Positions 1,306 through 32,909 of a stretch of DNA of 32,909 nt are shown in pieces. The DNA lies in the IMG/VR virus record IMGVR_UViG_3300042373_000318, positions 1 to 32,909 of that record. One strand, written 5' to 3'. Position 1 is the first letter of the stretch, and every line of letters starts with the position of its first letter. Both the position numbers and the translations under genes were made by a program. The notes beneath the pieces are model-generated. The model was given only the letters and a program-made list of their open reading frames with translations, was not told the origin of the DNA and ran no database searches. This DNA is from a virus.

Positions 1306-2292
1306 TCACTGAGCTGCGCCAAGCGCGTTGATGCGCTTCTGGTAATTAGCCGTGTGCCTGACACGTTTCATGGTGTCTATGCGGCCAAGCGTTTCAGCGT
1401 TGCATTCTTTTAACTCTTTCAAGATTGTCATGCGCTCTCTGGCCGGGCGCTTGCCTGCCTTCGCGGTCTTCTCAGCCAGCTCTTCGTACGCATCTGCCCA
1501 GTCTTCCAGGGTGTCATGCACGCTGTAAGGCTGCTCTTTTCCTGGCACGCGCACAGCAAATCCGATGGAAGCCACCTCTTCGCCCAGGTCATTAATGTCA
1601 TCAGGCCGTTGGTCGACTAAGGTCTGGAGCTCAACGTGCTCGACCACCTCGGCTTGCTCTAGCACCTCTGGCTCAGCTAGCGCTGCCAACTCCACCGGCT
1701 TGGCCACTAGGTCAAGGGGGTTTGCAGGGGCTTGGCGGGGCGCTGGAGCGCTTTTCTGTTCAGCAGGGTAGTCATGTGCCTCCTCGGCTGTGATCAGCCC
1801 TGTAAGAACGTCTGCAAAGGCATCGCGCAGCGCAAACCCACGGGCACGCATCTGCATCATGCGCTTGGGGTATGCCGTCCATGGGCCTAACTTGCCCCAC
1901 AGGCCAGCACGCTTGGCATCCTCGACAGAGAACTTGAATGTCACCGGCGTGCGTCCCTTGCGCTTGGCCACGCAGACAGCCACGGGGTTGGGCGTGCCTT
2001 CGTTCTCAAAGTATTCCTCGATGTTCTCGCACGCGGGACTGGCCTGCACCAAAGCCATGAGCGAGTCGCCATACATGCTGGGCTTGCCGTTGATCACAGC
2101 AATGTTCTGCAGCGCTTGCATGGGTGCCATGCCCATCTCATAACCCCACTGCAAGCAAACCAGGACATCATTGGGTTTACCCTGATATGCCCTGGGCACC
2201 ATGCTGGAGCTGGCCAGCATCTCGCTGAACTGGATGGCCTCTGTGAGGGTGGTTGGCGCGAAGCCGCGCTGGTTAGTGGTTGTCAGTTGCAT
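1306..2292 (-). CDS. RecT-family single-strand annealing protein
   Basis: A 328-aa protein whose first about 180 residues match the RecT family (annealases that pair complementary single strands). Signs include PNDVLVCLQWGYEMGMAPMQALQNIAVINGKP-type sequence at 40-71 and a YPKRMMQMRARGFALRDAFADVLTG segment at about 142-166. The C-terminal third is acidic and poorly conserved. The gene ends a leftward operon with a YqaJ-type exonuclease, the usual partner of such annealases. A purine-rich ribosome site (GAGGA) precedes the ATG, and the start overlaps the end of the 61-aa ORF. It is probably used for double-strand break repair, genome circularisation and mosaic exchange. Confidence 0.88.
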   Translation of the reverse strand: MQLTTTNQRGFAPTTLTEAIQFSEMLASSSMVPRAYQGKPNDVLVCLQWGYEMGMAPMQALQNIAVINGKPSMYGDSLMALVQASPACENIEEYFENEGTPNPVAVCVAKRKGRTPVTFKFSVEDAKRAGLWGKLGPWTAYPKRMMQMRARGFALRDAFADVLTGLITAEEAHDYPAEQKSAPAPRQAPANPLDLVAKPVELAALAEPEVLEQAEVVEHVELQTLVDQRPDDINDLGEEVASIGFAVRVPGKEQPYSVHDTLEDWADAYEELAEKTAKAGKRPARERMTILKELKECNAETLGRIDTMKRVRHTANYQKRINALGAAQ

Positions 2293-2459: not shown

Positions 2460-2555
2460 TCAGTTGTCCTTTGCAATGAAGCACAGCGAAGCAACCAGCA
2501 GGCCGACGGTGCCACCGATCATCAGGCAGCCAATTGCAATGAGTGTGCAGATCAT
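2460..2555 (-). CDS. 31-aa single-span membrane peptide
   Basis: This short ORF has a strong ribosome site (AAGGAG, eight bases before the ATG). Its start overlaps the exonuclease stop (ATGA) and its stop lies one base before the next start. The peptide is almost entirely one hydrophobic, Gly-containing helix (CTLIAIGCLMIGGTVGLLVA), with a short KDN end. The tight overlaps and strong ribosome site argue that it is translated. Its function is unknown; small phage membrane peptides of this kind include host-exclusion factors and lysis modulators. Confidence 0.6.
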   Translation of the reverse strand: MICTLIAIGCLMIGGTVGLLVASLCFIAKDN

Positions 2556-3511
2556 GACTGCCACTCCTTAATTGACAGCGTGGATTGACGCACGCTGTAC
2601 GCTTCTTTAGCCGGCACTAAACGCTCGGCTGCTGCCTTGAAATTGCGCATTGGCCAGCTGATGACGTAGTGCCCTGCCCGGCCCTTCTCTGCCTGGCCCA
2701 GCTGCGCCTTTATCAGCTTCTCTGCTGTTTCGATGTGAGTCTCGGCTGCTCTGATGGCTGCCTTGTTTTCTAAGATGCCTTTGGCCAAGTCGGTGACGCT
2801 GCCTGGCAGCTCGATCTCTTCTTTGATGACAGCCTGTGGGTAGATGCGGTCAAGCTCCTTGCTGCTGGCCGGTGGATACCAGTCAATCTCAGCGCTGCGG
2901 CGGTACTTGTCCAGCTTACTCTCAAACTGCAGCACGGCCTTGACAATCTCTTTTTGGGTGTCGTAGTGCGGGCCGAACAGGAACACGCGCAGCTCGATGC
3001 CCTGGTACAGCACGCACACAGCGCCCCATTTGTGGCCGGTGACCAGCATCTGGCCTTGCAGCTGGATGGGGCCACGCGCCAGGTGAGGCACGTCCTCTGG
3101 CATGGTCTTGGTCAGCTTGGCTTCCAGCACGCCTGGGCCATCGAGCACAATAGAATCCTGGCCAACCACGAAGATGCCCTTATCGGGGTCGGTGGTGATC
3201 TCCTGGCCGGTGCCATTGCCAACGCCGTCCAGACTGCACGACAGCGCAACGCTGCTGTGGGTGTATGCCTGGTTGATCTCGGTGTTAAATTCGGTGATGC
3301 CCAGGCGCTTGGCTGCCTCAATCAGGATCACCGGCTCTAGGGTGTTGCCCCAGCCCATGGCTTCGTTGCCAATGTCGGGGCGTTCTTTGCCATCGATGGC
3401 GTTGATTGAGAACTGCAGCTCATCATTGGGCGTGCTGTACTTGCTAAAGCCCATCAAGCCCGGCAATCTGCTGGCGCTCATTGACTTGTCATCGGTTAAT
3501 TTTCCGGCCAT
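2552..3511 (-). CDS. YqaJ/lambda-exonuclease-type recombination nuclease
   Basis: A 319-aa protein with the motif order of YqaJ-like (PD-(D/E)XK) phage exonucleases: an N-terminal 'SASRLPGLMGFSKY' segment, WGNTLEP with Glu59, SLDG with Asp95, the LEAK catalytic strand with Glu130 and Lys132, and the downstream QLQGQM glutamines at 150-154. These enzymes resect double-stranded ends to leave 3' single strands for the annealase, here the RecT protein two genes on. An AAGGA lies seven bases before the ATG, and the gene follows the 98-aa ORF by three bases. The C-terminal region, about 240-319, is charged and helical. Confidence 0.85.
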   Translation of the reverse strand: MAGKLTDDKSMSASRLPGLMGFSKYSTPNDELQFSINAIDGKERPDIGNEAMGWGNTLEPVILIEAAKRLGITEFNTEINQAYTHSSVALSCSLDGVGNGTGQEITTDPDKGIFVVGQDSIVLDGPGVLEAKLTKTMPEDVPHLARGPIQLQGQMLVTGHKWGAVCVLYQGIELRVFLFGPHYDTQKEIVKAVLQFESKLDKYRRSAEIDWYPPASSKELDRIYPQAVIKEEIELPGSVTDLAKGILENKAAIRAAETHIETAEKLIKAQLGQAEKGRAGHYVISWPMRNFKAAAERLVPAKEAYSVRQSTLSIKEWQS

Positions 3512-3968: not shown

Positions 3969-4058
3969 TCAACCCCTCCACGCCAGCAATACACCCCAGC
4001 CACCAAAGACTAGGAACGTGCCCACAACGTAGGCTGCATTGATCAATTTTTCTTTCAT
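3969..4058 (-). CDS. 29-aa single-span membrane peptide
   Basis: A short ORF with an AAGGGG ribosome site before its ATG, starting 14 bases after the serine recombinase stop and ending just upstream of the 52-aa ORF. The peptide has a Lys/Glu N-terminus, one hydrophobic helix with aromatic and Gly residues (YVVGTFLVFGGWGVLLAW) and a positively charged RG end, which fits a single membrane span. Role unknown. With the 31-aa peptide at 2460-2555 it makes two membrane micro-proteins in one recombination operon. Confidence 0.55.
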   Translation of the reverse strand: MKEKLINAAYVVGTFLVFGGWGVLLAWRG

Positions 4059-4072
4059 GGTTTTCCCCTTAA

Positions 4073-4723
4073 TTAAGCTCTTGCGAGCAAGTTAGAAACC
4101 TGGCTTGCGTGCCAGACTGTGCCGCCCCTGGCGGTCTCAATGCCGCGAGCTGTGAGCTCGGCAGCAATGTCTCTGAGGGTGGCTGCACCCAGGCGTGCCT
4201 GGATGTCGCGCACCATTGGCAGCATGCGTGTTGCATAGGCGTCTGCCTTGGTTTTGATGCTGGCCACGCCAGCTGCGCTGCCAACTGTAGGGGTTGGGCA
4301 ACCCAAGCGTGTGCCACGGGCCTTGGCTTGTGCAAGGGCAGCCTTTGTGCGCTCGCTGATCTTACGTGCTTCCCACTCAGCAAACACTGCAGACATTTGC
4401 AAAAAGGTGCGGTCAGCTTCTGGCATGTCAGCACAGACAAAAGGTACGCCAGACTCAAGCAGGCCGGATATGAAGTGAACATTGCGTGCCAGGCGATCAA
4501 GTTTGGCAATCACCAGGACGGACTTTGTACGCTTGGCAAGGCTCATAGCCTGAGCCAGCTGCACACGATCTGTCTTGCGACCAGATTCGATCTCTGTAAA
4601 CTCAGCAACCAACTCTTGGTCACCGACGTGTTGAGCAACAGCCTGGCGCTGTGCATCTAAGCCAAGACCTGACTGGCCCTGGCGATCTGTTGACACTCGG
4701 AAGTAAGCTACAAATTTGATCAT
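4073..4723 (-). CDS. Small serine recombinase (resolvase/invertase type)
   Basis: A 216-aa protein with the serine-recombinase catalytic domain: YFRVSTDRQ with nucleophile Ser11, LDRLARN in the active-site region, and the E-helix segment ERTKAALAQAKARGTRLG. A C-terminal helix-turn-helix follows (TLRDIAAELTARGIETARGG). The length is that of resolvases and invertases, far below large serine integrases. The start was chosen because AAGGAG lies six bases upstream; a longer frame reaching 4816 would run through the promoter. It is the first gene of the leftward operon. It could resolve genome multimers, invert a segment, or act as a small integrase; no second crossover site was recognised, so this remains open. 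Confidence 0.88.
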   Translation of the reverse strand: MIKFVAYFRVSTDRQGQSGLGLDAQRQAVAQHVGDQELVAEFTEIESGRKTDRVQLAQAMSLAKRTKSVLVIAKLDRLARNVHFISGLLESGVPFVCADMPEADRTFLQMSAVFAEWEARKISERTKAALAQAKARGTRLGCPTPTVGSAAGVASIKTKADAYATRMLPMVRDIQARLGAATLRDIAAELTARGIETARGGTVWHASQVSNLLARA

Positions 4724-4765
4724 GTTGAACTCCTTGCACGTCATCTGTGCGTTGAACATGGAAGG

Positions 4766-4796
4766 ATTATAAACCCAAAGCGATATCGGTGTACAA
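4766..4796 (-). promoter_or_regulatory. Leftward early promoter
   Basis: Read on the minus strand, a perfect TATAAT (4766-4771) lies 19 bases from TTGTAC (4791-4796), with TGTACA as an 18-base alternative. The recombinase ATG is 42 bases further on. The spacer contains the palindrome CGATATCG (4781-4788), where a bound repressor would block RNA polymerase. It should drive the leftward recombinase and recombination genes. Confidence 0.6.
4779..4789. promoter_or_regulatory. Candidate operator O1 within the leftward promoter
   Basis: AGCGATATCGG contains the 8-bp palindrome CGATATCG between the -35 and -10 elements. It shares AGCGATAT and ATATCGG with the second site at 4870-4884. The likely ligand is the divergently encoded ribbon-helix-helix protein, or else the serine recombinase itself, since resolvases often bind sites in their own promoters. 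Confidence 0.5.
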
Positions 4797-4804
4797 CCCC
4801 CAAA

Positions 4805-4813
4805 CGGTAACCG
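4805..4813. promoter_or_regulatory. Short palindrome in the divergent control region
   Basis: CGGTAACCG is a perfect inverted repeat of four bases around a central A, midway between the two candidate operators. Its sequence is unrelated to theirs, and it is short enough to occur by chance. It is recorded because it lies in the 174-bp control region between divergent operons. Confidence 0.25.
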
Positions 4814-4869
4814 CACGTAAGGACTTACCCTAATGCAGCAATAAATCTTTCACTTAGGTGTTCTGTCCA

Positions 4870-4884
4870 ATATCGGAGCGATAT
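4870..4884. promoter_or_regulatory. Candidate operator O2 upstream of the RHH gene
   Basis: ATATCG-GAG-CGATAT is a perfect 6-3-6 inverted repeat ending 13 bases before the RHH start codon. It overlaps a possible -10 element, TATACA (4882-4887). Short palindromic sites next to their own gene are typical of autoregulating Arc/CopG-type proteins. The shared AGCGATAT and ATATCGG words with 4779-4789 suggest that one protein binds both promoters. No convincing -35 was found for the rightward promoter. Confidence 0.5.
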
Positions 4885-4897
4885 ACACTAATGCTCC

Positions 4898-5089
4898 ATG
4901 GATAACACACTCAAACCCTTCCTCACCAGGCTGCGCCCTGAGACTCGCCTGCTGCTTGACAAGGCAGCCGAAGACCAGCGCCGCTCTATCTCATCCCTAA
5001 TCGACCAGTGCGTGCGAGACCAGCTGCAGCCCCGCTACGGCACGCTCTCGCCCAGGCTTGAGCGCTTTCTGTCGGGTGTGAAGCAATGA
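4898..5089 (+). CDS. Ribbon-helix-helix (Arc/CopG-like) transcriptional regulator
   Basis: A 63-aa protein with the compact RHH pattern: a short basic strand (about residues 7-12, PFLTRL) that would enter the major groove as a dimer, then two helices (PETRLLLDKAAEDQ and SISSLIDQCVRDQLQ). It is the first gene of the rightward operon and is divergent from the serine recombinase, with candidate operators at both promoters. It probably represses one or both early promoters. It lacks a clear Shine-Dalgarno site, and a possible -10 lies about ten bases upstream, so a leaderless message is possible. No CI- or Cro-like repressor was seen elsewhere. Confidence 0.75.
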   Translation: MDNTLKPFLTRLRPETRLLLDKAAEDQRRSISSLIDQCVRDQLQPRYGTLSPRLERFLSGVKQ

Positions 5090-5262
5090 ACCACCAGGAA
5101 GCCAACAAGATTTTGGACATGGCCAAGGACGGCCAGCCAATACCGGAGGACGTATTGACCGAGGCGCTTTTCATGACGGGTGACGCTGGTTGCTGGCGCG
5201 ACATTCCTTGCCCTGACGTGCTGCAGTTTGTGCAAGACATGCGACAGGCCGGGCTGCTATGA
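5086..5262 (+). CDS. Hypothetical 58-aa protein
   Basis: The frame overlaps the RHH stop (ATGA at 5086) and the RusA start (5259), so it is embedded in a translationally coupled chain. The product is mixed acidic and helical, with GDAGCWRDIPCPDVLQFVQDM near its end. No family is recognised. The position between the regulator and RusA suggests an early accessory protein. Confidence 0.65.
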   Translation: MNHQEANKILDMAKDGQPIPEDVLTEALFMTGDAGCWRDIPCPDVLQFVQDMRQAGLL

Positions 5263-5681
5263 GCGCGGCCCTGTACTTTGTGGTGCCTGGCAACCCGGTT
5301 GGCAAAGGCCGGCCACGGGCCAGCACCAGAGGCGGCTTTGTGCGCATGTACACCGACGCAAAGACTGTGACGTATGAGCAGGCCATCGCGCACCAGGCCA
5401 CGTTTGCAATGCACGGCATGGATCTGTTTACCACGCCCATTAGCATGCGCATTTTGGCCTTCTACGGCATACCGCCAAGCTGGACAAAGCGCAAGCAAAT
5501 GCAGGCGCTGCGCGGTGAGTTAATACCAGGCAAGCCGGACATTGATAACGTCGCCAAGGCCGTGCTAGACGCATGCCATGTGGTCTACGTCGATGACAAA
5601 CAAGTAATTCGCTTAGTGATTGAAAAAGAATATTCCTATGACCCTCGCATCGAGGTCTACATCCACGAGATATTGAAATGA
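5259..5681 (+). CDS. rusA: RusA-family Holliday-junction resolvase
   Basis: A 140-aa protein of the usual RusA length. It has the N-terminal FVVPGNPVGKGRPR segment, the metal-binding KPDIDN motif at 92-97 (Asp94 and Asp96 likely catalytic), and the VVYVDDKQV segment with Asp112/Asp113. RusA dimers cut four-way junctions symmetrically. Here it would resolve intermediates made by the exonuclease/annealase pair or during replication, before packaging. It overlaps both neighbours by four bases (ATGA). Confidence 0.92.
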   Translation: MSAALYFVVPGNPVGKGRPRASTRGGFVRMYTDAKTVTYEQAIAHQATFAMHGMDLFTTPISMRILAFYGIPPSWTKRKQMQALRGELIPGKPDIDNVAKAVLDACHVVYVDDKQVIRLVIEKEYSYDPRIEVYIHEILK

Positions 5682-6072: not shown

Positions 6073-6302
6073 AGCGCGCATGGAAACCTCACTACCACAA
6101 GCACAAAGGCCCAGTGGAGCCGGACATGACGATCCTATTGATGGCAGTGGCCAGAGAGCTGCTGACGACCTGGGAAGTCTTGCGCGACAAACCCTTGGTG
6201 GACAGGCACCTGGCTGCAGTGGACAAGGTCTACGGCGCCGGCAGCGAGGCATCAGTGCGCCAGTACATGCACAGGATCAAGAGAGATGAACGCTGTGGCT
6301 GA
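6069..6302 (+). CDS. Hypothetical 77-aa protein
   Basis: A mostly helical, basic protein with His/Lys residues at the start (KPHYHKHKGP) and a helical middle (MTILLMAVARELLTTWEVL). It overlaps the winged-helix gene by four bases and the initiator gene by 17, so it is coupled within the rightward operon. No family is recognised. Its place immediately before the initiator could suggest a replication accessory role, but the sequence gives no motif for this. Confidence 0.6.
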   Translation: MKRAWKPHYHKHKGPVEPDMTILLMAVARELLTTWEVLRDKPLVDRHLAAVDKVYGAGSEASVRQYMHRIKRDERCG

Positions 6303-7242
6303 ACCGATTCACTTTGAGCTGCCCAAGCGGCCAAGGGTCAAACAGAAAGACCCACCACCCGATCAGCGCAAGGTCTGCGTGCTGCCGATCAGAGCTGTGT
6401 TTGACAAACGCATGAGCCACGGCGCCCTGCAAGCATTGGCAGCGCTGTGCGCGTACTGCAACCGGGCAGGCATCACATGGGTCAGCCAGACCAGGTTAGC
6501 CCAGGAGCTGGGCATCAGCCAGCAAGCGGTGGCCAAGCAGTTCAAGCAGCTAAGGGAATTGGGCTACCTGCAGACAGTACGCAAAGGGTTCAAGGGCGAG
6601 CGCACAGACACCCTGCGCGTTGTGTTCGATCCCAGCATCACAGCAGAGGAAGCCATCACCATGACATCAAACAAGGAGGATACACGCCCACCGGCAATCA
6701 TCCAGGAGCAGGCCAGACAGGCCGAGGAGATCGACAGAGAGGGCCAAGCAAGGATCGCCAGGCTCATCAGCAAAGCACTCAAGCAACCACTCAAACAGGA
6801 GAAAACCATGCCCGCATCAGGACAGACCAGGACGGTCAAGAAGATGAAGGAAGACATCCAAAAAGCTAAACAGAAGGGGTCACCAGGTACACCAAAACCT
6901 GTGGACAACCATGTGGACAAGCATGCTCACATTCACAACCCACAGGTTGTACATGAAGAGGGTCTACATTCACAACCTAATCACAACCTGGAGGTTGTAG
7001 ATAACACAAGAGAACACATAAGAGTAAACCTATATAAGGTTAATTCTTTAAATACAATAAGAGATAACCGGTTAGTTCTGCACAACCAAACAATCAAGCA
7101 GCTGCTCGATTTCGGACTGACCGACCAGGACATCGATGACGGCCTGACAACCCTGCTGGCCATCTACGCAGCCGAGGGAATCACCCCGAAAGAGCAGCAC
7201 CTGGTTGATGGATTGATGCAGATGAAGCGGGATGCGGCATGA
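6286..7242 (+). CDS. Winged-helix replication initiator (O-like)
   Basis: A 318-aa protein with a winged-helix domain at about 46-115 (GALQALAALCAYCNRAG, then WVSQTRLAQELGISQQAVAKQFKQLRELGYL and a basic wing). A charged linker follows, then a low-complexity His/Asn/Val-rich segment (about 205-240) and a compact helical C-terminal domain (about 265-318). The middle of the gene holds an iteron-like, AT-rich array (6900-7075), so the layout is that of lambda O, whose N-terminal domain binds iterons inside its own gene. No helicase or loader gene follows; the C-terminal domain may recruit the host helicase directly. Family-level function is inferred from fold and context. Confidence 0.7.
   Translation: MNAVAEPIHFELPKRPRVKQKDPPPDQRKVCVLPIRAVFDKRMSHGALQALAALCAYCNRAGITWVSQTRLAQELGISQQAVAKQFKQLRELGYLQTVRKGFKGERTDTLRVVFDPSITAEEAITMTSNKEDTRPPAIIQEQARQAEEIDREGQARIARLISKALKQPLKQEKTMPASGQTRTVKKMKEDIQKAKQKGSPGTPKPVDNHVDKHAHIHNPQVVHEEGLHSQPNHNLEVVDNTREHIRVNLYKVNSLNTIRDNRLVLHNQTIKQLLDFGLTDQDIDDGLTTLLAIYAAEGITPKEQHLVDGLMQMKRDAA
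6900..7075 (+). other. Candidate replication origin inside the initiator gene
   Basis: Two TGTGGACAA boxes 12 bp apart (6900-6908, 6912-6920) are one mismatch from the DnaA box in reverse orientation. Six ACAACC cores follow: 6905 (inside the first box), 6935, 6972 and 6983 forward, and 6945-6950 and 6993-6998 reversed. Several are spaced 10-11 bp apart. They form two inverted pairs, one being ACAACCT-GG-AGGTTGT. Beyond is an AT-rich tract (about 7003-7075) suited to strand opening. Iterons followed by AT-rich DNA inside an initiator gene match the lambda-type origin plan. Confidence 0.6.
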
Positions 7243-8441: not shown

Positions 8442-9981
8442 AGAACAAAGCTCCAAGCAGATGCCCTCAACGGGGCTGAACCTGGACTTCAGCGCCAGCC
8501 CAGAGGTCTGGAATTTTTTACAAAGCAATGCGTTTGTGCGCGGCATGATGGGCCCGGTGGGGTCGGGTAAGTCCTACGCCTGCGCTGCCGAGATCATGAT
8601 GCGTGCTGTCAAGCAAAAGCCCTCGCCCATTGACGGCATCCGCTACTCGCGGTTTGCCATTGTGCGAAACAGCTACCCCATGCTGAAAACCACCACGATC
8701 AAAACGTGGATTGATCTGTTTCCAGAGTCCACGTTTGGGCCACTGCTTTGGACACCGCCTATCACGCACCACATCAAGCTGCCCAGCCGTGGGGATGCAG
8801 CCGGTATTGACTGCGAGGTGATCTTTCTAGCCCTTGACCAACCCAAAGACGTGCGCAAGCTGCTGTCATTGGAGCTGACTGGTGCCTGGGTCAACGAAGC
8901 GCGTGAGTTACCCAAGGCTGTGATTGACGGCTTGACCCACCGTGTTGGCCGGTACCCAACCAAACGTGATGGCGGTGCGACCTGGTCTGGGATCTGGATG
9001 GACACCAACCCAATGGATGACGACCACTGGTGGTACAAGCTGGCCGAGAAGGAAAAGCTCACCGGCCAGTTTGCCTGGAAGTTTTTTAAGCAGCCTGGTG
9101 GCGTGGTGCCGGTTGACTCAGAAGACTTACCCGAGATGCCCGAGGCCAACGACCACATCTTTGCGGCTGCCAAGTGGTGGCGGGTTAACCCTAAAGCCGA
9201 GAATCTGAACAACCTGCCTTCTGGCTACTACCTGCAAATGCTGGGCGGCAAGACGCTGGACTGGATTCGCTGCTATGCCGGCGGCGAATACGTCTATGTC
9301 CAGGAAGGCAGGCCCGTATGGCCTGAGTATGACGACTCTGTCATGTCTGGCGACACCGATATTGACCCCAATGTGCCCATCCAGGTGGGCCTGGACTTCG
9401 GTTTGACCCCTGCCGCCACCATTGGCCAGCGACTACCCAATGGCCGGTGGGTGATTCACCAGGAAATCGTCACGTTTGACATGGGCCTGGAGCGGTTTGG
9501 CACCCAGCTGCTGGCTGAATTGAACGCTCGCTACCCCAACCACCAGGTTCTGATCTGGGGCGACCCCGCCGGCATGGCCAGGGACGCCATCTATGAGGTC
9601 ACAGCGTTCGATTTTCTGCGAACACTGGGGCTCAAAGCCCAGCCAACAGCGTCCAATGACTTCAAAGTGCGCCGGGAAGCGTCAGCAGCCCCCATGCAGC
9701 GCCTGGTCATGGGCAAACCTGGCCTGATTATCAACCGCGAGTGCAAGCTGCTGCGCAAAGCGCTGGCTGGTGGCTACCACTTCAAGCGAGTTGCGGTGGG
9801 TGCCGGGCATGAGCGCTTCAAAGACGCGCCAAACAAGAACGAACACTCGCACATTGGCGACTCATTTGGCTACTTGATGCTGGGCGGTGGCGAATACAAC
9901 CGCATGACGCGCACGCACCAGCTGGGTGGCCGCGCTCCTGGCATGGCCACAGCTGTTTTGGACTTCGATATCTTTTCATGA
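8428..9981 (+). CDS. terL: Terminase large subunit
   Basis: A 517-aa packaging motor with both expected domains. The ATPase has the Walker A motif GPVGSGKS at 42-49, a Walker B-like stretch GAWVNEAREL at 152-161 whose Glu158 would be catalytic, and the MDTNP coupling segment at about 191-195. The nuclease has the three acidic sites of the RNase H-like fold: Asp323 (VGLDFGL), Asp379 (IWGDP) and Asp478 (HIGDSFGYLM). It pumps DNA into the prohead through the portal at 12416-14035 and cuts the concatemer. Length and motifs are complete. Confidence 0.96.
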   Translation: MSRTKEQSSKQMPSTGLNLDFSASPEVWNFLQSNAFVRGMMGPVGSGKSYACAAEIMMRAVKQKPSPIDGIRYSRFAIVRNSYPMLKTTTIKTWIDLFPESTFGPLLWTPPITHHIKLPSRGDAAGIDCEVIFLALDQPKDVRKLLSLELTGAWVNEARELPKAVIDGLTHRVGRYPTKRDGGATWSGIWMDTNPMDDDHWWYKLAEKEKLTGQFAWKFFKQPGGVVPVDSEDLPEMPEANDHIFAAAKWWRVNPKAENLNNLPSGYYLQMLGGKTLDWIRCYAGGEYVYVQEGRPVWPEYDDSVMSGDTDIDPNVPIQVGLDFGLTPAATIGQRLPNGRWVIHQEIVTFDMGLERFGTQLLAELNARYPNHQVLIWGDPAGMARDAIYEVTAFDFLRTLGLKAQPTASNDFKVRREASAAPMQRLVMGKPGLIINRECKLLRKALAGGYHFKRVAVGAGHERFKDAPNKNEHSHIGDSFGYLMLGGGEYNRMTRTHQLGGRAPGMATAVLDFDIFS

Positions 9982-10484
9982 CCGACCTGATTGACACCGT
10001 CAACGAAAAGCTGGCCTGCACGGGCATCTACTTTGAGCCGATTACCGATTGGCACATTGAGCGGCTGTCTGAATACGTCAGAACACCTTGGCCCATCGAT
10101 CCGCTAGACACCATTCACTTCAACATGGAGCGCGGCCCAAGTGGTGCCCTATACTTCAACGGCAAAATGCTTGGCATCATCGGTGTGGCTGTGCTTTGGA
10201 AGGGTGTCGGTGAAGTGTGGACGATCATCGACGACAGCATCAAGCACAAGTACAAGCGCCAGTTGGTTGTCGGTGTGAGAACTGCCCTTGATATCGCTCA
10301 GATATCACTTGCTTTGACCCGTGTACAAGTAGCAATAGAATCTAATGAAAATTATTCGCAGAGCTGGCCGCTGGCGCTGGGTTTCACCCTTGAAGGCGTG
10401 ATGCGCAACTTCGGTATGGACGGCTCAGATTACACACTTTATGGGAGGATCAGATCATGCCAGCACCAATCGTCGCAGCGTTGA
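9978..10484 (+). CDS. GNAT acetyltransferase-like phage protein
   Basis: A 168-aa protein overlapping the terminase stop by four bases. It has the segment order of GNAT-type proteins: an N-terminal helix after ITDWHIERLSEYV, strands around LYFNGKMLGIIGVAVLW, GEVWTIIDDS, the acceptor-loop region KHKYKRQLVVGVRTALDIAQ, then VQVAIESNENYSQSWPLALGFTLEGVMRNFG, typical of the C-terminal half. Such proteins sit near terminase and portal genes in many podoviruses, and their substrate is unknown. It may be a minor virion or host-modifying protein. Its last 28 bases overlap the next gene. Confidence 0.65.
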   Translation: MTDLIDTVNEKLACTGIYFEPITDWHIERLSEYVRTPWPIDPLDTIHFNMERGPSGALYFNGKMLGIIGVAVLWKGVGEVWTIIDDSIKHKYKRQLVVGVRTALDIAQISLALTRVQVAIESNENYSQSWPLALGFTLEGVMRNFGMDGSDYTLYGRIRSCQHQSSQR

Positions 10485-27739: not shown

Positions 27740-30202
27740 ATGCCGATTCCAATTTCAAACGTAACCCGCCGAGTTGTATACGCAGCCAGTGGCACTGGCC
27801 CGTATGCGTTCACCTTTGAAATTCTGGCGAACACCGACATCGCTGTTTTCCGGGATGACACGCTGTTGACACTGACCACCGACTACACGGTGACCATTGC
27901 CGCAAACGGCACCGGCTCAATCACCCTGGTGGCCACACCCACTGGTGCGACACAGATCGCCATTGTTGGCAACCGCACTATCCAGCGCACTACAGACTTT
28001 GTGACTGGTGGCGACTTCTTTGCCAACACGGTCAACGATGAGATGGATCAGCAGACCATCTTCGCGCAGCAGAATGCCGAGGGTTTGCAGCGTGCGCTAA
28101 GCGCACCGCAGACTGACCCCACCACCATCAACATGACATTGCCCCGTGCATCTGTGCGAGCTAGCAAGGTGCTGTCGTTTGATGCAACTGGCAACCCTGC
28201 AGCCACAGAGTTTATTGGATCTAACCGTGGCAACTGGGCAAGCGGCACGCTGTATTACGTCCGAGACATCATCAAGGACACAACCAACAGCAACATCTGG
28301 CAAGTTATTACGCAGCACACATCAAGCGGTTCATTGCCAATTGGCACCAACGCTGATGCGGCAAAGTTCACCTTGCTGGTTGACGCAGCTGCTGCTGGAA
28401 CGTCGGCCACAGCTGCTGCTGCTTCAGCATCGGCAGCCGCAACATCTGCAAGCAATGCATCCACATCGGCCACCAATGCGGCCAGCTCTGCCAGCACCGC
28501 GTCGACCCAAGCAAGCAACGCTTCGACCTCTGCCACCAACGCGGCAAACTCTGCCAGCGCTGCATCGAGTTCAGCCAGTACGGCTAGCACAGCAGCTACA
28601 AACGCTGGCACCAGCGCAACAGCTGCTGCAACAAGTGCAACAAATGCAAGCAACAGCGCAACCTCGGCCAGCACCTCGGCCAGCAACGCAAGCAGCTCAG
28701 CATCGGCAGCCAGCACGTCTGAATCCAATGCAAGCACATCTGCGACTAATGCCGCCAACTCAGCAAGCACTGCTACCACCCAGGCGACCAATGCGTCAAC
28801 CAGTGCAGGCACGGCCACCACGCAGGCGACAAACGCTGCCAGCTCTGCTACCGCTGCCGCTGCTTCTGCTGCTGCCGCTGCTGCCAGCTTTGACGCATTT
28901 GATGACATCTACCTGGGTGCCAAAGCAAGTAACCCAACCGTTGACAACGACGGCAACGCGCTAACCACTGGTGACCAGTACTTTAATACTGTGGCTAATG
29001 AACTGCGCGTGTGGAATGGTTCAGCCTGGCAGACTGCGTCTACTGTTGGCGGCACGGTGACCAGCATAAATGTCACTGGTTTGGCAACGCTAGCTACTGG
29101 TGCTATTTTAAATACACCCGCGTCTGTAACGCTAAGCAATGCAACTGGCCTACCCCTGACAACTGGAGTGACAGGAACTTTACCTACTGCAAATGGCGGT
29201 ACAAACCTAACATCATTTACATCAGGCGGTGTGGTTTACGCATCTAGTTCTAGTGCATTGGCTACTGGGTCTGCGCTTACTTTCAATGGCACAAACGAAT
29301 TTAAAGTTCTTGCGGCTACTGGAGTTGCGTATAACCGAACTGAAAGCACACAATATTCAACTTTTGCACAGCACTTTGCGGCTTCTGGTAATACAGGTGT
29401 TGAATACAAAACCGCTTATCGTTTTGTTGATACCGATGTTGGCGAAATAGGTCGATTCACCTCAACAGGGTTGGGTATTGGTACAAGTTCGCCCTCTAAC
29501 AAACTAGAAGTAAAAGGTGGAAACGGCAATCAACTTACACTTGACAATGCTGGTGAAGCCTATACCCAGATGACTTTTAAGTCAAACGGAACTAACAGAG
29601 GAGCAATCTGGTCAACAGCGTCTGATTTTAGTCTTTACACATACTCAACACAGTCCCTCATTTTTTACACAAACACCACAGAAAGAGCCAGATTTAATAC
29701 GACTGGCGCATTTGTCCTTGCGGGTGGCACAACTACCGCAGATGGAATTGGCATCACATTCCCCGCAACTCAATCAGCATCATCCAACGCAAACACGCTA
29801 GATGATTATGAGGAGGGGACTTTTACTCCTTCTTTTACATTTGGCGGTGGTTCAACAGGAATAACTTATTCTGCAACAAGACGAGTAGGGCAATATACAA
29901 AAATAGGAAATGTTGTTTATTACTACATTCATGTAGAACTTACTAGTAAAGGCTCATCAACAGGGGGGTTTTTAATTACAGGCTTACCGTTTGTAGTTGT
30001 TGGTAATGAAAATTATGTACCTGCTTCTTCGTTTTTAGCAGATATGGCATCAATAACAGGAATGTTAATGGTTCGTGCGTCTGTTGGTTCTACTTACTGT
30101 GATGCATATCAAGTAGTATCAAGCACTTATTCACAGATTACAGACTCAAACTTCACTAATACAACAGGTTTACAGGTTAGTGGCTTTTATAGAACAACTT
30201 AA
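27740..30202 (+). CDS. Tail fibre protein with T7-type N-terminus
   Basis: An 820-aa host-recognition fibre. Residues 1 to about 150 match the T7 gp17 attachment domain (ISNVTRRVVYAASGTG, FEILANTDIAVFRDD, GNRTIQRTTDF, FANTVNDEMDQQTIFAQQ). About 215-383 is a long Ala/Ser/Thr/Asn repeat shaft (units like SASNASTSATNAAS). The C-terminal part has GTSSPSNKLEVKGG and then DDYEEGTFTPSFTFGGG with GQYTKIGNVVYYY, typical of receptor-binding tips. From about 29060 the DNA is AT-richer than the shaft, suggesting an exchanged tip. AAGGA precedes the ATG; a weak TTACAA/TACAAT promoter lies at 27691-27717. Confidence 0.9.
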   Translation: MPIPISNVTRRVVYAASGTGPYAFTFEILANTDIAVFRDDTLLTLTTDYTVTIAANGTGSITLVATPTGATQIAIVGNRTIQRTTDFVTGGDFFANTVNDEMDQQTIFAQQNAEGLQRALSAPQTDPTTINMTLPRASVRASKVLSFDATGNPAATEFIGSNRGNWASGTLYYVRDIIKDTTNSNIWQVITQHTSSGSLPIGTNADAAKFTLLVDAAAAGTSATAAAASASAAATSASNASTSATNAASSASTASTQASNASTSATNAANSASAASSSASTASTAATNAGTSATAAATSATNASNSATSASTSASNASSSASAASTSESNASTSATNAANSASTATTQATNASTSAGTATTQATNAASSATAAAASAAAAAASFDAFDDIYLGAKASNPTVDNDGNALTTGDQYFNTVANELRVWNGSAWQTASTVGGTVTSINVTGLATLATGAILNTPASVTLSNATGLPLTTGVTGTLPTANGGTNLTSFTSGGVVYASSSSALATGSALTFNGTNEFKVLAATGVAYNRTESTQYSTFAQHFAASGNTGVEYKTAYRFVDTDVGEIGRFTSTGLGIGTSSPSNKLEVKGGNGNQLTLDNAGEAYTQMTFKSNGTNRGAIWSTASDFSLYTYSTQSLIFYTNTTERARFNTTGAFVLAGGTTTADGIGITFPATQSASSNANTLDDYEEGTFTPSFTFGGGSTGITYSATRRVGQYTKIGNVVYYYIHVELTSKGSSTGGFLITGLPFVVVGNENYVPASSFLADMASITGMLMVRASVGSTYCDAYQVVSSTYSQITDSNFTNTTGLQVSGFYRTT

Positions 30203-32048: not shown

Positions 32049-32581
32049 AACTTTCTGAAGTTAAAAGCACAGAGGAAACTATTGAACTTATAAAAGTTTA
32101 TGCGTGGCTTTTTGCAGTGGTTGTTGTCATGCTTGTCTTTGGCTTCACAGTGTTTTCAATGCTCTATTCTGTCATTTTCATAACACAGCCAATCAAAACT
32201 ATGGCGCCAATAGACAGTGCTTTTACCAAGCTCTTGAACGACGTTGTGCTTTTATTGGTTGGAAGCATTAGCACATTGATCGGAATGTTTACCATTAACA
32301 AAGGTGCTAAATCGTTTGCTGAGAGAATGAATCCAACGCCACCCATGGGCCAGTGTGTGGGCCAGCAATACGGCCAGCAATACGGCTATAGCAACAATCA
32401 CGGCTTTAAATCAAACACTCACAATATTCCTGGTCAAGCCTTTGGTGCAATGCCTGTTTGGCAAAACCCAGAGCTAGATGAGTCTTGGACCCCTGGTCCA
32501 CCACCAGACACTCCACCGGACCATCTTGAGGATGACCATGAGCGCGAACAGCTGGCACAGGCAAGAAAAGAGGCTGAATAA
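32045..32581 (+). CDS. 178-aa two-span membrane protein, candidate holin
   Basis: Two membrane helices (about residues 19-47 with VYAWLFAVVVVMLVFGFTVF, and about 63-86 with LNDVVLLLVGSISTLIGMF) are followed by a Gln/Gly/Tyr-rich linker with a tandem GQQY repeat, a Pro-rich motif and a charged end (EREQLAQARKEAE). It directly precedes the spanin and endolysin genes, so it is the best holin candidate. The about 90-residue soluble tail is long for a holin. The tail is duplicated, in diverged form, at the left window end. Confidence 0.68.
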   Translation: MKLSEVKSTEETIELIKVYAWLFAVVVVMLVFGFTVFSMLYSVIFITQPIKTMAPIDSAFTKLLNDVVLLLVGSISTLIGMFTINKGAKSFAERMNPTPPMGQCVGQQYGQQYGYSNNHGFKSNTHNIPGQAFGAMPVWQNPELDESWTPGPPPDTPPDHLEDDHEREQLAQARKEAE

Positions 32582-32909
32582 TGTTTGGCATACCACTACC
32601 CTATATCGCCCTGGCAATCGGCATTGCCTTGTTTGGCTCTTACCGAGGTGGCTATCACTTTGGATGGGAAGACAGAGACAATGACATGAAACTGGCCATT
32701 GCCCAAAAGAATGATGAAGCCAGAGCCAAAGAGAAAGAGCTTGGCGAGAAACTGCAAGATCAGGAAACGAAACTCAGAAAGGCCCAAGATGATGTCAAGA
32801 AAAAGCAGTCTGCTATGCATGAGCTTGCTCGCACTGGTCGGCTGCGCCTCCCAGCCCCAAGTTGTCCACAAGCCAATGCAAGTGCCACCATTAGCATTGG
32901 AAATCCACA
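32581..32909 (+). CDS. Rz: Second partial copy of the Rz-like i-spanin (3' cut by window end)
   Basis: The first about 109 codons of the i-spanin appear again, matching 243-571. The start overlaps the holin-like gene's stop (TAATG). The membrane segment and coiled coil are present; the C-terminal part is cut off by the window end. If the genome is circular this is the same gene as 243-719 seen from a second strain. Confidence 0.85.
   Translation, partial: MFGIPLPYIALAIGIALFGSYRGGYHFGWEDRDNDMKLAIAQKNDEARAKEKELGEKLQDQETKLRKAQDDVKKKQSAMHELARTGRLRLPAPSCPQANASATISIGNP
32789..32909 (+). CDS. Rz1: Second partial copy of the nested Rz1-like lipoprotein
   Basis: The nested +1 frame is repeated with an identical start, ribosome site and lipobox; the equivalent start in the left copy is 451. 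The frame is cut off by the window end after about 40 codons. Confidence 0.75.
   Translation, partial: MMSRKSSLLCMSLLALVGCASQPQVVHKPMQVPPLALEIH

Follow-up and report, generated by a model that had tools for sequence, protein, structure and literature searches.

Short palindromes lie between the two divergent operons of the podophage genome studied here, and they raise the question of which protein reads them and what that protein controls. The window, i.e. the whole stretch of DNA that was analyzed, is a 32.9-kb virus record (32,909 nt), and its terminase shares 77% identity with the counterpart in Methylophilales phage MEP301. Its control region (4724-4897, 174 bp) separates a leftward recombinase/RecT-exonuclease operon from a rightward RHH/replication operon. 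An earlier note on this DNA had offered two candidate readers, the RHH protein and the recombinase, and had suggested that this could be a compact lysogeny or copy-control switch. The genes concerned are:

1306-2292, minus strand: RecT-like protein, leftward operon (Pfam RecT E 2.6e-4, below its cut-off)
2552-3511, minus strand: YqaJ-type exonuclease, leftward operon (Pfam YqaJ E 3e-8)
4073-4723, minus strand: small serine recombinase, 216 aa, first large gene of the leftward operon, with a Shine-Dalgarno AAGGAG ahead
4898-5089, plus strand: RHH regulator, 63 aa, Arc-like, first gene of the rightward operon
5259-5681, plus strand: RusA resolvase, rightward early gene (Pfam RusA E 1e-31)
6286-7242, plus strand: O-like replication protein, rightward early gene (PHROG replication initiation O-like E 1.7e-8)
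9978-10484, plus strand: acetyltransferase-like ORF, homologue of MEP301 gp44

The recombinase matches Pfam Resolvase (E 1e-27) and PHROG 125 "DNA invertase". Its match to PF07508 in the C-terminal part (178-214) is weak and sub-threshold, and the combination of Resolvase, full recombinase and zinc-ribbon domains of a large serine integrase was not found in the 216-aa protein. The acetyltransferase-like ORF, which gave no match in Pfam, is named after the "putative acetyltransferase" annotation of MEP301 gp44. An Rfam search of 4000-5200 returned no RNA element.

Divergent promoters and candidate operators

Inspection of the control region, with a consensus scan for the leftward promoter, gave the following elements:

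4766-4796, minus strand: leftward promoter PL, -35 TTGTAC (4796-4791) or TGTACA, -10 TATAAT (4771-4766)
4781-4788: predicted operator O1, CGATATCG, centered at about -25 of PL
4818-4833: central element TAAGGACTTACCCTAA (TAGGnnnnnnnCCCTAA; also written TAGGGACTTACCCTAA), about midway between PL and PR
4870-4884: predicted operator O2, ATATC-GGAGC-GATAT = ATATCGGAGCGATAT, overlapping the PR -10 and centered at about -19 of PR
4882-4889, plus strand: -10 region of the rightward promoter PR, TATACA / TACACT

The palindromes that the earlier note had placed at 4781-4788 and 4870-4884 are both present. O1 had been described as lying inside the promoter, which holds in that this GATATC-type site sits in the PL spacer, but the hexamers themselves are not overlapped. 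These hexamers, 18-19 nt apart, fit the consensus well and are kept in close relatives. O2 is better read as TATC-N5-GATA, with an exact core at 4871-4883. In the window PR has a poor -35; that of MEP301 is TTGACA. Since the RHH ATG lies 8 nt past the likely PR -10 and has no Shine-Dalgarno, the RHH mRNA is probably leaderless.

Within the window, AGCGATAT occurs four times against 0.38 expected, a count reached in none of 100 shuffles, and two of the copies are O1 and O2. ATATCGG (three copies, 1.1 expected) is weak taken alone, CGATAT is found 14 times (4.8 expected), and exact TATC-N5-GATA occurs only at 4871-4883 and 10292-10304. On these counts we take the enrichment to be real for AGCGATAT and modest for the other words, so relatives were needed to decide, and we regard conservation and covariation among them as the decisive evidence.

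Conservation of the sites and covariation with the RHH protein

Two scans of IMG/VR yielded 160 loci with 100 distinct intergenic regions, about 150 to 1100 nt long, in all of which the recombinase and RHH genes are divergent. The RHH-proximal stretch keeps a constant order: PL with GATATC in its spacer, TAGG...CCCTAA, and then ATATC...GATAT over the PR -10. In most classes the RHH gene starts within about 6-10 nt after the -10, with no visible ribosome site; one divergent class has AGGAG ahead of the start. The sites are thus conserved along with the genes, and the proposal, for which the earlier note had named unconserved sites beside conserved genes as grounds for refutation, is not refuted by the relatives.

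On the leftward side, PL lies anywhere from near zero to about 900 nt away from the recombinase gene among the 100 intergenic regions, apparently through small inserted genes, which are preceded by a conserved leader. This leader has two alternative forms, written on the plus strand as GTTGAACATG or GGTTGCGATG. We also weighed a leaderless leftward transcript, with its ATG 6 nt past TATAAT, but gave it up; the second leader type keeps AAGGAG without that ATG.

The RHH proteins of the relatives were grouped into 30 clusters, across which the predicted DNA-contacting strand and the sites co-vary. The strand KPFLTRL is mostly paired with CGATATCG and KPFLMRL mostly with GTATATC, while IPVLARL is paired with TGATATCA and IPFLVRL with forms of GATAGC or GATATC; the sites that accompany KPLVVRL or KPFMVRL are quite different. 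O1 and O2 resemble each other within genomes, with a mean longest common word of 6.32 vs 5.54 +/- 0.20 between genomes (1 of 5000 permutations). Among 27 cluster representatives, and read as sequence correlations between related, non-independent genomes whose relatedness permutations do not fully remove, the RHH DNA-binding strand correlates with O1 (rho 0.38, p 0.0015) and with O2 (rho 0.58, p 0.0005), and O1 with O2 (0.62). Less favorable to the RHH protein, O1 is a compact GATATC that lacks the spacing of O2, and its partial correlation with the strand, once the rest of the protein is removed, is weak (rho 0.15, p 0.09). This covariation favors the RHH protein, one of the two readers that the earlier note had proposed, as the one that likely regulates both divergent promoters.

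A predicted third operator at the probable structural-gene promoter

The second exact TATC-N5-GATA of the window lies inside the acetyltransferase-like ORF that follows the terminase, 5.4 kb from O2:

10290-10306: predicted operator OM, GATATCGCTCAGATATC, core TATC-N5-GATA at 10292-10304, centered at about -50 of PM
10314-10341, plus strand: structural-gene promoter PM, TTGACC - 16 nt - TAGAAT, kept across relatives

The earlier account was incomplete, having missed OM and PM at this distance as well as the central element. OM stands 9 bp ahead of PM, and its silent codon positions are kept while the encoded amino acids vary. Across 57 distinct gp44 genes, its four silent positions rank 1, 2, 6 and 8 in conservation among 163 codon columns, and the codon that precedes ATA has G at its third position throughout, whether it specifies E, Q, K, V, T or A. 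Freshwater relatives that lack gp44 carry OM 6-10 nt past the terminase stop codon, followed by the promoter. A coding coincidence was considered for the gp44 site and rejected, on the silent-codon conservation and on the occurrence of the site outside the gene in these relatives.

An exact TATC-N5-GATA is found at most 1.3 kb downstream of the terminase in 38 of 63 distinct TerL loci, against none of 63 for the reversed control; the other 25 have no exact match, and some gp44-bearing relatives lack the right half. The promoter is TTG(A/C)nn-16/17-TAGAAT in the freshwater type and TTTACA-17-TAGTAT or TAAAAT in marine gp44. Its geometry is nearly fixed, with OM 31, 30 or 29 nt from the -10 in 24, 12 and 4 of 40 distinct sequences. 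Within a genome, O2 and OM resemble each other more than chance allows (4 and 11 of 5000 permutations), even though 5.4 kb separates them in the window. The same AGATTGATAGCAT stands at both in L191/L193; the PL, PR and PM sites of L197 (ATGCTTTCACAGTG, ATGCTTTCAAAGTGATAGC, ATGCTTTCACAGTGATAGC) form a near-identical trio; and in the KPLVVRL class (L328, L329) O2 and OM are both altered, with GCGCC(A/G)TC in common. Physical linkage was weighed as a source of the correlation between RHH protein and sites and is unlikely: the central element, between the sites, ignores the RHH strand, and OM is kilobases away.

The PM spacer repeatedly holds TGTACAA / GTACAAA, which is also present at the PL -35 (GTGTACAAC, 4790-4797) and is perhaps a further shared signal.

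The RHH family and its marine relatives

Against Pfam Arc (PF03869), the window protein reaches E 0.08 and 13.2 bits. Because this is under the cut-off of 20.4, we call it Arc-like rather than a member of Arc. Among 25 relatives, 12 match Arc at E <= 1 (best 1.2e-4) and 19 match TacA1 weakly (best 0.0013). Fold matches, weak at E ~1, are mostly to Arc, CopG, TacA, PutA, AmrZ and other RHH proteins. A single-chain model has helices at 14-26 and 31-47 and draws the N-terminal strand as a short helix; the family conserves a P-F-L-x-R-L strand and an RS turn. The RHH gene, present in 27 of 28 records (resolvase in 25 of 28), is a core gene of this podophage group. A tblastn search of deposited phages found no RHH relatives, and none was found in the stretches searched of Hodr and BcepC6B.

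In MEP301, a cultured marine phage, a family profile search of the genome located an RHH relative at 32732-32902 on the minus strand (E 7e-11), over gp52, which is annotated as hypothetical. It is 38% identical to the window protein. Its operon promoter reads TTGACA-caatgTATCTATGAGA-TATACT with TATC-N5-GATA over the -10, and in the opposite promoter, which faces the recombinase operon, TTGCAT and TATACT flank a GATATC. Exact TATC-N5-GATA occurs exactly twice in MEP301, at the RHH-operon promoter and in gp44, the ORF after the terminase. The two phages are alike in synteny, in RHH protein (gp52) and resolvase, and in O1-, O2- and OM-like sites; they differ in that, in MEP301, about 1.8 kb with other genes separates the RHH gene from the leftward promoter. 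Of the 80 loci returned by a scan with the MEP301 protein, many have TATCnnnnnGATATACT at the start of the RHH operon, and in many marine relatives, as in MEP301, TATC-N5-GATA covers the -10 of its promoter. The arms of the marine sites are constant there, and the center varies (TATGA, TATAA, TTTCA, TTTTA, CCCTA). The MEP301 paper describes no regulator, its text containing neither "repressor" nor "promoter", and its analysis found no RNA polymerase gene (PMC8024684). The host of MEP301 (L162, MW452941.1) is given as FZCC2181 in GenBank and as HTCC2181 in the methods of the paper.

Proposed regulation of early and structural genes

We consider it quite probable, on this comparative evidence, that the RHH protein is an Arc-like regulator which binds O1, O2 and OM, represses PL and PR, and acts with either sign at PM. 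Arc, a dimer of dimers when bound, inserts beta-strand residues into the major groove (PMC12645479), and by analogy the two-arm geometry of the sites fits that mode; the RHH protein would bind ATATC-N5-GATAT-like sites, probably also as dimers of dimers. Repression of PL and PR is inferred because O1 (about -25) and O2 (about -19) overlap the space of RNA polymerase. Bound at O1 in the PL spacer, the protein would turn off the recombinase/RecT/exonuclease operon, and at O2 over the PR -10 its own replication operon. At OM, just upstream of the PM -35, it could repress or activate the structural genes. Made early from PR, it would thus exert negative feedback on early transcription, coupled to structural-gene expression. 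Such a protein would likely be a master switch of infection.

The RHH protein may also act as a single-protein early-to-late switch that represses both early promoters and activates PM from about -50, a reading which we offer tentatively and hold to be somewhat doubtful. A precedent is p4 of phi29, an early protein that acts at early promoters and at the late promoter (PMC3100819). The RHH protein would resemble p4 as one early protein at early and structural-gene promoters, and activation of PM by analogy with p4 is a possibility. In contrast to the RHH protein, p4 acts together with p6 on neighboring promoters, and it is not described as belonging to the RHH family. If true, the switch would be an Arc-like counterpart of p4, without lysogeny or a phage RNA polymerase, and its operator and promoter would be embedded in coding sequence and constrain it.

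Several known systems share parts of the regulation that we favor, i.e. Arc-like binding at all three sites. P22 Arc is likewise a small phage RHH protein, and its operator also has two inverted 4-bp arms (within a 21-bp TAGA-box operator), again 5 bp apart. Arc acts beside Mnt in the immI region of a temperate phage; here, in contrast, the arms are TATC/GATA, the protein belongs to an early replication operon, a third site stands at a promoter of structural genes, and no genes for lysogeny turned up. Plasmid autorepressors of the CopG / ParG type are also short RHH proteins, and CopG is among the fold matches; like them, the window protein probably represses its own replication operon, but it has three operators, including one at the structural genes, and a plasmid state is not supported. 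The lambda immunity region offers a similar layout, with divergent early operons, operators over both promoters (OL/OR), recombination to the left and replication to the right. Unlike lambda, the window phage has a single RHH regulator and the third site at the structural-gene promoter, and no CI/Cro-type protein or integrase was found.

Relatives of this podophage turn up often among aquatic viral contigs. For them, our result provides a likely master regulator, unannotated even in MEP301, together with its DNA code and three promoters, and opens the timing of transcription in this phage group to direct test. The naturally occurring RHH strands, with their altered operators, form a data set on DNA choice by RHH proteins, and OM and PM, kept at silent positions within coding sequence, are a clear example of overlapping information.

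Lifestyle

Three-promoter control could also serve lysogeny, in which case the RHH protein would be an immunity repressor that keeps PL, PR and PM shut in a prophage or a plasmid. A single regulator could silence the phage from its sites at the three promoters, and a small resolvase, an O-like initiator and an RHH protein would suit a plasmid prophage, but we consider this reading unlikely. Tyrosine integrase (PF00589) was found in none of 27 near-complete records (controls positive in 14 of 14), and HTH_3 repressors (PF01381) in none of 28 above the cut-off, with one sub-threshold match in G020; the absence of a CI/Cro-like repressor and of a tyrosine integrase, already remarked in the earlier note, agrees with these searches of 27-28 records. 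A terminase scan of 84,980 species genomes, which depends on exact peptide words, detected no prophage, its matches being two short phage-like MAG contigs and one 35% relative, and absence from collections is no proof of a virulent life. No partition genes occur among the ORFs examined. As far as visible, the RHH protein is expressed only from the promoter it covers, which suggests homeostasis rather than obvious bistability. Because no integrase, CI-type repressor or prophage was found, lysogeny is not supported for the window phage, and the compact lysogeny switch suggested earlier finds no backing. Short contigs of the phage group do occur in bins of Chloroflexi and Flavobacteriaceae genomes (L163, DOXE01000474; L164, CAKZOO010000001) and are likely mis-binned phage rather than prophage.

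The recombinase and the central element

Palindromic sites lie upstream of the resolvase gene in a res region. By the same layout, the serine recombinase could bind the palindromes here as resolvase subsites, control its own promoter and resolve multimers, as the earlier note had in part proposed; we judge this very unlikely. Neither O1 (0.02) nor O2 (0.00) correlates with the recombinase among the 27 representatives. In L004/L006 the sites are unchanged with a recombinase that is only 62% identical and an RHH protein 98% identical, whereas in L061 they are changed with a recombinase 96% and an RHH protein 75% identical. O1 and O2 moreover persist in related phages that have no detectable recombinase: the L197 and L200 records have no resolvase hit, and the RHH protein of L200 is the same as that of L193. 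In L193 and L197 the leftward operon starts with an ORF of 102-105 aa (MEFGTFWKKLVRRNAP.../MKFGTFWQTLVRRNAP...), with the exonuclease gene next, and this ORF may take the place of the recombinase.

The element that does track the recombinase, weakly (rho 0.28, p 0.02), is the central one. Its family form is TAGGgacttaCCCTAA, or TAGGnnnnnn(n)CCCTAA, about 66-70 bp upstream of both the PL and PR starts, and it was found in 24 of the 30 RHH-cluster representatives. It is uncorrelated with the RHH strand (-0.08) and does not follow O1/O2 either. As a recombinase site it is contradicted by L193, of the type without a resolvase hit, which retains it, and by L027 and L107, which lack it despite recombinases that are 81-85% identical. 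L027, L029, L052 and L107 have CGGGTATT... in its place. To our knowledge, the element has no convincing match among LexA, OxyR/LysR or DnaA motifs.

It is highly improbable that the RHH protein is instead the antitoxin of a TacAT-like pair with the acetyltransferase-like ORF after the terminase as toxin, as the weak TacA1 matches in 19 of 25 relatives, the gp44 annotation in MEP301 and the position of OM within gp44 might suggest, given that the two genes are 5 kb apart, gp44 is without a Pfam match, and many relatives without gp44 retain the RHH protein and the operators.

Other features of the window

The ends of the window (1 to about 570 and 32339-32909) are near-identical, at 93-97% in aligned blocks, with inexact matching and diverging outer parts; probably the genome is circular and was joined across two strain variants, or its terminal redundancy is imperfect. 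A coding array of 21-nt repeats, rich in Ala/Ser/Thr/Asn, occupies 28403-28848 inside a large ORF (27740-30202) that is a probable tail fiber.
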